From: an uncultured Planctomycetota bacterium
Lineage (GTDB): Bacteria; Planctomycetota; Phycisphaerae; UBA1845; UTPLA1
Length of the DNA: 64,000 nt
Assembly: GCA_900696465.1 (NCBI GenBank)
Contig: CAADGE010000020.1
Location: 62,001-126,000 of the forward strand
Reading direction: 5' to 3'
How positions within the stretch are numbered: position 1 is the first letter of the stretch; each line of letters starts with the position of its first letter. The notes beneath the pieces were generated by a model. That model made no database searches and had not been told where the DNA came from. It was given only the letters and a program-made list of their open reading frames with translations. Made by a program: the position numbers and the translations under genes. Positions 46,774-50,062 of the stretch are shown here, piece after piece.

Positions 46774-47580
46774 ATGGAAGACATCTCCGGCGATCCGCGA
46801 ACGCATTCCAATCTGCTGATCTTCGAGATCGGCAACTCCCATGTGAGCGTGGCGACGACCGTGGCCGGTTCGGTACGCACGAATCAGCGATTCAACCTCG
46901 ACCAGCTCGATGCCATCGCCGCGCACAGCGAGGAGGCATGGGCGGCACTTCCGCCCGATCGCCTGAAGGCCCTGGCGGCGGCCGGCGTCGTGCCAACCGT
47001 GATGGATCGCCTGAGCGAGCGCATTGAATCACTGTTCAACGAGACATTGCACATCGTGGGCGACGACCTCCATCGTCCGATGTCGCTCGCCGTGGAAGCG
47101 CCCGAAAAGGTGGGCATCGACCGCGTGTGTGCCGCCGCTGCGGCCTACGAAGGCGTCGGCGGTGCCTGTGCGATCGCCAGCTTCGGCACGGCCATCACCG
47201 TCGACTGCGTCAACGAGCAGGGCGTCTTCCTCGGTGGCGCCATCCTCCCGGGCCTTGCGCTTCAGGCCCGCGCCTTGCACGAGGGTACAGCGGCACTGCC
47301 GGAGGTTCAGATCGAGCCCACCGGCCTGGTTTTCGGGACGACCACCCAGGAAGCCATCTGCAACGGGATTCTCTTCGGTGCTGCAGGCGCCCTCCGGGAA
47401 ATCGTCGAACGTTATGCCACACACCTGGGCAGCTGGCCCGCCCTGATCGCCACAGGTGGGAATGCCGAACTGATCAGTCGCGAATGCGATTTCATCGATC
47501 GCGTGGTGCCGGACCTCTGCATCCGCGGAATCGCTTTGGCCTACCGCAAGCACTTTGCACCTCTGCCGGACTCATGGTAA
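46774..47580 (+). CDS. coaX: Type III pantothenate kinase-like protein (CoaX), atypical acidic residues
   Basis: A 268-aa member of the CoaX/ASKHA family, which phosphorylates pantothenate in CoA synthesis without sensitivity to feedback. The start has GAGGAAAG as SD. Motifs: phosphate-1 FEIGNSHVSV (residues 17-26; the family normally has Asp at position 18, here Glu), GIDR (D116, conserved), SFGTAITVD (136-144; the family normally has Asp at position 136, here Ser) and GGAILPG (154-160). The fold appears complete. Whether catalysis persists is uncertain. It overlaps the MnmE-like gene by seven bases. Confidence 0.85.
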   Translation: MEDISGDPRTHSNLLIFEIGNSHVSVATTVAGSVRTNQRFNLDQLDAIAAHSEEAWAALPPDRLKALAAAGVVPTVMDRLSERIESLFNETLHIVGDDLHRPMSLAVEAPEKVGIDRVCAAAAAYEGVGGACAIASFGTAITVDCVNEQGVFLGGAILPGLALQARALHEGTAALPEVQIEPTGLVFGTTTQEAICNGILFGAAGALREIVERYATHLGSWPALIATGGNAELISRECDFIDRVVPDLCIRGIALAYRKHFAPLPDSW

Positions 47581-48710
47581 GCGATCCGATGGCCACCATC
47601 GCGGCACGATTGACACCCCTGGCGCCAGGGGCCATCGCGGTCGTTGCAATGACCGGGCCGGATGCACAATCCATACTTCGGCGCATCCTGAGACACCCGC
47701 GACGAGATGAGCCGATCTCATTCGAGACGAATCGGCCGCGACTCTGTCGGATCTTCGACGTCGACCGTCTTCTCGATGATGCGGTCGTAACGCTGATTCC
47801 CGGCGCGAGGGGAAATGTCGTCGAGTTGAGCACCCATGGTGGCGTTCGGATTGTTCAGCGCCTGCTGATGCTCCTTCAGAGTGAAGGCGCGACGATCGTG
47901 GACGCGTGGGAATTCATTCGGCAGTCAGCTGCCGATGAATCCGATCCTGCCGGTATTGCCGCGCGACTCACCGTCGAATGCGAGATCGATCAGGCACTAC
48001 TGGCCTGTCAAAGTAGACGATTGGCCCGTTGGCTGCTTAGGCAACGCGCCCTCCTGCCACCATTTCTCGAAGCCATTCATACGCTTGACACGAGCGCGCG
48101 TGACGAGTTCGTCGCACGAAGCCGCGTCGCCATTCGACTGCTTCAGGGAGTGACCATCGCGCTGGTCGGCCCTCCGAATGCCGGCAAGAGCACACTGGCG
48201 AATCGCCTCATAGGACGTGATCGCGTCCTCACCTCCGACATTCCCGGCACGACCCGCGACTGGGTCAGCGAGACAGCATTCATCGATGGCTGGCCGGTCA
48301 CCTTGACCGACACCGCCGGTATTCGCGAGACCACCTGCTCGATCGAGTCGGAGGCCATCCGTCGGGCTACTGCGGCGCTGCACCACACCGATCTGGCCGT
48401 CGTCGTTCTCGATGGCACGTTGTCGCCGGAACGGCGGCTTATCGCCTGCGAAGAAGTCTTCCACGCTCTGCCTGCGAACCTGCCGCGCATCGTCGTGGCC
48501 AACAAGGCCGATGTAGCGAGTTTCCAGGGATCAAGCGATGACCATGCGGAAATCGTGCTTTCCGCGCGCACTGGTGACGGCATTTCGGTACTGGAACAGC
48601 ATATTGTCCGACACTTTGATTGGCACTTGCTCGACGATACAACAGCTACGGCGATCTTCGCTCGTCAACTGGCAACTATAGAAGGTGTAGATGCGCTTCT
48701 TTCGACGTGA
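47574..48710 (+). CDS. Short TrmE/MnmE-like GTPase lacking the C-terminal helical region and Cys motif
   Basis: A 378-aa protein whose ATG (47574) lies seven bases inside coaX; an ATG 15 bases later is also possible. N-terminal TrmE_N fold about 1-110 (TIAARLTPLAPGAIAVV, ELSTHGG). The G-domain is complete: GPPNAGKS (199-206), PGTTRD (about 224-229), DTAG (246-249), NKAD (310-313), SAR (330-332). True MnmE (about 450 aa) continues with a helical region ending in FCIGK, which carries the catalytic Cys for tRNA U34 modification; here the protein stops 46 residues after SAR. The helical middle is also divergent. Confidence 0.82.
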   Translation: MVSDPMATIAARLTPLAPGAIAVVAMTGPDAQSILRRILRHPRRDEPISFETNRPRLCRIFDVDRLLDDAVVTLIPGARGNVVELSTHGGVRIVQRLLMLLQSEGATIVDAWEFIRQSAADESDPAGIAARLTVECEIDQALLACQSRRLARWLLRQRALLPPFLEAIHTLDTSARDEFVARSRVAIRLLQGVTIALVGPPNAGKSTLANRLIGRDRVLTSDIPGTTRDWVSETAFIDGWPVTLTDTAGIRETTCSIESEAIRRATAALHHTDLAVVVLDGTLSPERRLIACEEVFHALPANLPRIVVANKADVASFQGSSDDHAEIVLSARTGDGISVLEQHIVRHFDWHLLDDTTATAIFARQLATIEGVDALLST

Positions 48711-48850
48711 AGTCCGTGCCTTGATAATCCTGCTCCCGAACCTGGCTCAAGCCTCGTGTAGATTCTTGGGTTGAATCCAATGTCAGAACTTTCGTTTCAC
48801 ATGAATATGCACAGGGTTTACACTTGTACAACACGGTATGATGTTCACCC

Positions 48851-50062
48851 ATGCCACCGGTACTCCGCATTCTATTCCTGAACGAGTTTTTCCACCCTGA
48901 CATATGCGCCAGCGCCGTTGTCGCTGCCGATCATCTGCCGAAGATTGCCCGCTTGCGGCCCGATTGGCGGATCACCGTACTCTGCGGCGACCGCGCATGG
49001 AACGATCCTGCGACCATCCACCCGTCTCGACAGGTGCACGAAGGAATCGAGATTATTCGCGTACCGCGCCCTGCCGTCAGTCGCACGAATCTCTTTCGTC
49101 GCGCCCTGGGATTTGCCGCGTTCCAGCGAAACGCCCTCCGCGCTGCAAAGGAACTGGATCGCATTGACCTGGTCGTCGGAACGACGGCCCCGCCGCAGGG
49201 CGGAACCATCGCTCGAAAAATCGCCCACGCGCGTGGCTGCCCGTTCATCTACAAAGTCTTCGATCTCTACCCCGATCTGGCAGTCGCCCTCGGCCACACG
49301 CGCGAAGGGTCTTTCATCCATCGCCGATGGCTTGCGGCCGACACGCTGGCCATGCGCGAAGCAGCCGCCGTCGTCTGCATTGCTGACGGCATGACGCGGC
49401 GGCTTCTCCGGACGCGCAATCTGGCGGCGCAGCGGCTTCAGACGATACACGACGGCTACGACTCCGCACGCCTTCATTTCGATGGCCCGAACCACTTCCG
49501 TGAGCGTTACAACCCGGAGGGACGATTCGTCGTGCAATATGCCGGGAACATGGGACTTTCACATCCCTTCGAGACGATACTTTCGGCCGCACGGACGCTT
49601 GCTGCCGATGACAGCATCCTTTTCCAGTTCATCGGTGACGGACCCCAGCGCGAGAACATTCGCATGAACCTCCCTCCCGGCGCGCAGCTTCTTGATTACC
49701 AACCGCCTGAACTTCTTGGGCAGGTTCTCGCCACAGCCGATGTGTGTTTGATTTCGCAGAGCGAGACCATGTGCGACATGGCCCTGCCGTACAAGATTTA
49801 CGCGAACCTCGCCGCCGCCCGTCCGGTGATCTTCATCGGCAATGCCCAATCGGAAATAGCCGAATGGCTCGAATCCGCCGGCGCCGGCTGCTGTGTGTCG
49901 CAGGGCCGCCCCCGCGATCTGGTCGAAGCGCTTCTCGCATATCGAAATGACCCCGCCCGTCGCGCGGCTGCGGCTGTCGCCGCGAAATCACTTTTTGATG
50001 CCCGATTCGATTCGTACAAGGCCTCCAGTCAGTGGATGGAACTGATCGACGGTATTCTGTAA
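48851..50062 (+). CDS. Glycosyltransferase family 4 (WbuB/GT4-like)
   Basis: A 403-aa GT-B enzyme. An N-terminal acceptor Rossmann domain (FLNEFFHPDICASAVVAADH) precedes a GT4 domain with VQYAGNMGLSHPFETILSA (residue about 223), a FIGDGPQRENI, and the nucleotide-sugar EX7E-like region near YKIYANLAAARPVIF (about 314-330). It resembles WbuB-type transferases that build lipid-linked surface polysaccharide. The donor and acceptor are not known. No SD precedes the ATG; TATGAT lies eight bases upstream, so translation may be leaderless. The gene starts 140 bases after the MnmE-like stop. Confidence 0.87.
   Translation: MPPVLRILFLNEFFHPDICASAVVAADHLPKIARLRPDWRITVLCGDRAWNDPATIHPSRQVHEGIEIIRVPRPAVSRTNLFRRALGFAAFQRNALRAAKELDRIDLVVGTTAPPQGGTIARKIAHARGCPFIYKVFDLYPDLAVALGHTREGSFIHRRWLAADTLAMREAAAVVCIADGMTRRLLRTRNLAAQRLQTIHDGYDSARLHFDGPNHFRERYNPEGRFVVQYAGNMGLSHPFETILSAARTLAADDSILFQFIGDGPQRENIRMNLPPGAQLLDYQPPELLGQVLATADVCLISQSETMCDMALPYKIYANLAAARPVIFIGNAQSEIAEWLESAGAGCCVSQGRPRDLVEALLAYRNDPARRAAAAVAAKSLFDARFDSYKASSQWMELIDGIL

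Follow-up and report, generated by a model that had tools for sequence, protein, structure and literature searches.

A widespread short MnmE paralogue of Planctomycetota and its candidate role in a split, asymmetric MnmE

Gene and domain organization of the short form

The window analyzed in this study is a 64,000-nt stretch of an uncultured Planctomycetota genome (contig CAADGE010000020.1, positions 62,001 to 126,000, forward strand). On its plus strand, which carries all window features described below, the type III pantothenate kinase gene coaX (46774..47580; Pfam PF03309, 155.1 bits) is followed by an intact open reading frame (ORF) at 47574..48710, which starts with ATG at 47574, ends with a TGA closing at 48710 and comprises 378 codons. 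As had been noticed in an earlier note made from the sequence, the two genes overlap, by 7 nt, the coaX TAA ending at 47580. The 378-aa product, an MnmE-like short GTPase, is referred to here as MNL, our name for the MnmE-like short form.

The earlier note had described this protein as an MnmE-like GTPase with a divergent middle and without the C-terminal part, and both points were confirmed. Pfam searches detected TrmE_N (45.8 bits vs. a cut-off of 29.8; residues 8–117, 47595..47924) and the G domain (MMR_HSR1, 77.7 bits, residues 194–311), and neither FC(I/V)GK, a motif that MnmE bears on its swivel helix, nor PGEFT was present in the protein sequence of the window MNL. MnmE_helical stayed below its Pfam cut-off (12.9 vs. 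40.1 bits), and the NCBIfam MnmE equivalog models were far under theirs (163.8 vs. 380 and 121.9 vs. 252.6 bits). The TrmE_N domain, whose predicted fold is backed by the structure model, has neither the [YF]TGE loop nor the PGEFTxRAF motif that MnmE carries; in the alignment the loop is deleted and the position of R23 is occupied by Ala25. The DF(A/S)(D/E)E loop, by which MnmE touches MnmG, was likewise deleted in all 17 aligned family MNL rows. His88 (codon 47835..47837), equivalent to His84 of E. coli MnmE, was kept in all 116 MNL rows, a set that holds duplicates and contains 102 distinct members as judged by the last 200 residues.

The predicted structure of MNL (mean pLDDT 87.6) has three helices in a reduced helical part ahead of the G domain (47946..48146) and one short helix after it, and its best full-length structural matches were MnmE chains (9hiq, Z 22.5 over 353 residues). 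The C-terminal helix (residues 363–378, 48660..48707), located by the model and lacking FCxGK, is the remnant of the C-terminal helical domain. The G domain (48147..48617) displays the G1–G5 motifs, Asn202 (equivalent to Asn226), the K-loop GTTRD and Glu258 (codon 48345..48347), which aligned with the catalytic Glu282 of E. coli MnmE. Judged from sequence, putative equivalents of the residues for K+-dependent dimerization, N226, T250, T251, R252, D253 and E282, are thus all found in the window MNL; across the 116 rows, the N226 equivalent and TTRD are invariant, and the E282 position is Glu in 108 and Asp in six.

Conservation, phylogeny and genomic complement

The survey of relatives suggested by the earlier note revealed a conserved family, MNL being found in all 16 same-family genomes sampled at 42–56% identity. 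The term "truncated" used there fits only with respect to MnmE; within its own family, MNL has the usual length. Codon divergence of MNL against four relatives was highest at the third position, followed by the first and then the second, the pattern of a coding gene under constraint. When 95 MnmE C-terminal tails were searched against window positions 48400–49300, the matches fell mainly where the G domain ends; as a control, the mnmE of this genome was searched in the same way and gave an E value of 1.6e-21. One tail query (L069) aligned weakly past the stop codon (48537–48806, E 9e-4), probably by chance extension from the end of the G domain.

In the host genome (4.14 Mb, 48 contigs, 97% complete), both of the genes for which the earlier note had advised a search were found: a single full-length MnmE is encoded at C33, ends in FCVGK and contains PGEFSARAYLNG, and a single MnmG scored 528.8 bits. 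Of 296 class genomes, 291 had a canonical MnmE scoring above the Pfam cut-off.

A profile built from 30 MNL members matched 240 of 298 class genomes at 1e-40, a raw profile count at a level that MnmE elsewhere can reach. Indeed, with another profile (A2), canonical MnmE of other phyla reached E 3e-69; because the HMM score alone was unsafe for calling the short form, ORF ends were read. At each of the 40 phylum loci inspected, weak matches included, the best ORF lacked both the FCxGK end and PGEF. A second TrmE_N gene was found in none of 144 Verrucomicrobiota genomes, one of which had two matched pieces in a single frame. In a tree of 90 rows, 39 short forms constituted one clade (SH-aLRT 100) and 32 Planctomycetota MnmE another (99). 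As to whether MNL arose inside Planctomycetota MnmE, the unconstrained tree set MNL apart, but a constraint uniting the two was better by 22 log units and was not rejected (p-AU 0.883). Within Planctomycetota, MNL is a widespread and ancient paralogue of MnmE.

Short forms of the family coded f58 (L325, L327, L329, L332, L339 and L341) are longer and have a degenerate FCIGK-like end, such as FTSCLKG, with FTGED kept in some of them; they look like a possible half-way stage in decay from full-length MnmE. Several f58 genomes for which the A2 profile search returned no full-length match to the short form were later found to carry one, and nine f58 genomes first scored as lacking a short form do have one.

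Complementary loss of conserved residues in MnmE and MNL

Residues of the G domain and N-terminus were numbered after E. coli MnmE, using an alignment with its chain in 9hip. The first comparison set 68 short forms beside 27 MnmE from the class and 68 from other phyla, and MnmE rows were accepted only when the ORF ended in C[ILMV]GK (95 rows; 27 of 31 class loci). His84 was found in none of the class MnmE and in all members of both other groups. Glu282 was present in three of the 27 class MnmE and in all 68 from other phyla, the short forms having Glu in 61 and Asp in six of 68 rows, and Gly285 occurred in one of the 27 class MnmE and in 68/68 from other phyla. Replacement of G285 by Ala had been considered as a mark of lost tRNA function and was dropped, since Planctomycetota MnmE has it too.

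The extended comparison added 29 Planctomycetota and 30 Verrucomicrobiota MnmE and took 23 of the 68 other-phyla rows; the later MnmE rows were accepted by a [FY]CxGK end, by which 40 fetched loci were sorted into 29 MnmE, nine short forms and two that were neither, and the short-form locus L237 was dropped by the filter. His84 was retained in 116/116 MNL, 30/30 Verrucomicrobiota and 23/23 other-phyla rows and in only one of 56 Planctomycetota MnmE. R23 was kept in a minority of MNL (21 of 116 rows). This alignment was coarser, with gaps in MnmE at R275 and E282, and these two positions were taken from the first comparison and the column test described below.

In the column test, residues were not hand-picked: every column conserved to at least 95% in 49 reference MnmE rows (of 98) was scored, giving 57 columns, and 51 of the 102 distinct MNL rows were used. 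Twenty columns were kept in both paralogues and 12 were intermediate. Twenty-one were kept in Planctomycetota MnmE only, including R23, PGEFxxRA, DF and FCxGK, the last of which is a selection criterion of the MnmE rows and not an observation. Three were kept in MNL only, corresponding to D60, H84 and E282 of E. coli, the number D60 being obtained by counting back from H84. One column (G285) was lost in both, a count that is not itself below chance; the argument for complementarity accordingly relies on which residues fall on each side. E282 was present in five of 16 paired Planctomycetota MnmE rows, and therefore the loss of the GTPase residue is lineage-specific and not phylum-wide, while that of H84 is nearly phylum-wide.

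His84 was also absent from the MnmE of three genomes (G159, G169 and G191) without an MNL match at 1e-40, a profile threshold that may be too insensitive to call them MNL-free. In another genome (G249), MnmE (L343) lacks His84 and its switch II is highly degenerate.

Proposed MnmE–MNL heterodimer

The positions lost on either side can be compared with solved MnmE. PMC12397908 describes a K450/K454 pocket to which R20/R23 and Y71/F73 contribute in cis, while A15/G18 and H82/H84 come from the adjacent subunit; the lysine of the FCIGK tail sits in the folate pocket, where it is ringed by two residues from the same chain, F73 and R23, and two from the neighboring chain, G18 and H84. The same paper reports that the loop around D175 touches MnmG, that the MnmE dimer on MnmG is asymmetric with one MnmE subunit left vacant, and that this asymmetry is a current question. 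E282 is described as the invariant catalytic Glu in PMC2749940, and its replacement in E282A abolished tRNA modification and nearly all hydrolysis according to PMC3695501.

The MNL gene is real, conserved and ordinary for the phylum, but the paralogue pair is out of the ordinary, and its most satisfactory reading is an asymmetric MnmE split over two genes. The earlier note had left open a repurposed GTPase or a split enzyme: complementary residue retention argues for the latter, and repurposing stays as a rival. From the residue pattern we consider it modestly probable that MNL is a dedicated partner subunit of an asymmetric MnmE–MNL heterodimer. The two proteins would be joined at their TrmE_N domains, in the manner of an MnmE homodimer. 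Of the two, MnmE would bring the one-carbon chemistry to MnmG, because it keeps the folate-pocket residue R23 as well as the FC(I/V)GK tail and the loop that contacts MnmG. His88 of MNL would reach across to complete the folate pocket of MnmE, and the MNL G domain would supply the K+-dependent catalytic machinery (Asn202, GTTRD and Glu258) once the G domains meet. Since its MnmG-contact loop and tail are missing, MNL would be the permanently "vacant" subunit. Both the formation of the heterodimer and the direction of GTP hydrolysis are what we infer from these patterns, as would be a role of MNL with MnmG in wobble-uridine modification.

Such an obligate heterodimer would explain both sides of the pattern: MnmE has kept its cis-pocket and MnmG-facing residues and lost the partner-serving ones, and MNL has kept the partner-serving residues and lost those of its own pocket. 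In its fullest form, to which we give an even chance, the proposal is that the MnmE reaction of Planctomycetota is carried out by an obligate heterodimer that arose by duplication and complementary loss and has one folate site, built from the cis residues and FC(I/V)GK of MnmE and the trans His of MNL, and that in many lineages MNL would be the sole catalytic GTPase.

Genomic neighborhood and alternative functions

Several of the observations above count against the heterodimer, namely the Glu282 kept in five of 16 paired MnmE, the lack of His84 in MnmE of genomes with no MNL match, the G285 lost from both paralogues and the R23 kept in a minority of MNL. So does the position of MNL, which adjoins obgE–coaX and not mnmE or mnmG. 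Among 50 MNL neighborhoods, coaX lay directly upstream on the same strand in 44, obgE was present in 21, an ORF that we take to be bL27-like in seven, and a presumably MutS-like ORF downstream in about nine; in a wider phylum set of 40, coaX was located by MNL in 26 and obgE in 14, 14 of these 40 genomes being also in the earlier locus set whose ORF ends were read. At 15 of 17 family loci a start codon overlapped the stop codon of coaX, the overlap being 4 or 7 nt, which suggests coupled translation and supports the co-expression with coaX proposed in the earlier note. At four loci (L163, L165, L244 and L147), 0.5–2.4 kb separate coaX from the short form, and the overlap is therefore not universal. 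The presence of coaX itself gives no clue to the function of MNL.

This neighborhood, together with the loss of MnmE-chemistry residues from MNL, points to the main rival, which we regard as unlikely although worth weighing: MNL would be an independently repurposed, K+-activated dimerizing GTPase of the obgE–coaX cluster, serving ribosome assembly or another translation task with ObgE and bL27 and performing no MnmE chemistry. Only 25 of 195 Planctomycetota genomes yielded a full-length Era, and the 29 class genomes in that sample yielded none, so that most of these bacteria are without a usual ribosome GTPase; a review (PMC10582724) states that era is present in some Planctomycetota species and absent in others. 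Full-length short forms, however, occurred in genomes both with and without Era, and nothing here points to MNL as a substitute for Era. Counted by eye, about 102 of 195 genomes had a full-length short-form match with an E value of 1.1e-51 or better; this number is too low because f58 was undercounted, and the cross-count with Era therefore carries no weight. Moreover, an independent GTPase leaves unexplained why Planctomycetota MnmE has lost H84, D60 and, in many cases, E282 while MNL keeps them.

The heterodimer reading shares with a second alternative the idea that the two proteins pair. Here MNL would be a regulator that blocks or tunes MnmE while giving it no catalytic residues, as might be expected of a protein that keeps a dimerizing TrmE_N fold and a complete G domain and lacks the chemistry residues. 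We consider this improbable: an inhibitor would not need the trans His84 (116/116) and the catalytic Glu (108/116), and MnmE would not be free to lose H84 and its catalytic Glu. It is highly improbable that MNL, albeit an MnmE homologue, takes over the tRNA-modifying role of MnmE by other chemistry, and this was rejected in view of the mnmE and mnmG present in its own genome, the canonical MnmE of nearly all class genomes and the disappearance of the folate and MnmG-contact residues from MNL. Finally, a sequencing error or frameshift, which the earlier note had named as what would overturn its reading, or a decaying mnmE pseudogene, to any of which the missing protein end might point, has a negligible chance of being correct and was ruled out by the conservation of the short form (16/16 same-family genomes and 40/40 phylum loci), the lack of a C-terminal remnant at the level of the control, the constrained substitution pattern and the intact mnmE elsewhere in the genome.

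Relationship to known GTPases and implications

MnmE (TrmE/ThdF), the GTPase of tRNA cmnm5U34 formation, occurs very widely, and disease has been linked to GTPBP3, its homologue in humans. MNL resembles it in the TrmE_N fold, the G domain, Asn226, GTTRD, Glu282 and the His84 equivalent, and differs in lacking PGEFTxRAF, the R23 equivalent, the DF(D/E)E loop and FC(I/V)GK, in its reduced helical domain and in its separate clade. HydF, the [FeFe]-hydrogenase maturation GTPase, has a related G domain, but MNL attained only 80.6 bits against the NCBIfam HydF model TIGR03918 (cut-off 325.55) and, unlike HydF, bears a TrmE_N domain ahead of the G domain. The G domain of MNL belongs to the same superfamily as those of Era and Der; Der, however, possesses two G domains, and for Era, Pfam detected no KH domain in MNL at E 1 and model TIGR00436 gave 55.2 bits against a cut-off of 116.25.

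In the literature searched, no earlier description of MNL was found. PMC8567305 states only that one species, Tuwongella immobilis, has two MnmE paralogues, which together with MnmG were all in fraction S3; either paralogue may or may not be MNL. If the heterodimer is correct, the phylum would have a two-gene tRNA-modification GTPase in which the asymmetry adopted by the E. coli homodimer on MnmG is fixed in genes, and single mutants could be used to probe the folate and GTPase sites and the vacant subunit one at a time. Annotations that may name MNL an MnmE would also be corrected.

An atypical motif in the adjacent CoaX

In type III pantothenate kinase, the first phosphate motif reads ExGNSH in the CoaX proteins of the window's family (window 46774–47580 and loci L129–L140 and L142–L144), instead of the DxGN[ST] seen at all other CoaX loci where the motif was found. 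Two further motifs, FGTAxTxD and GxDR, are for the most part retained.
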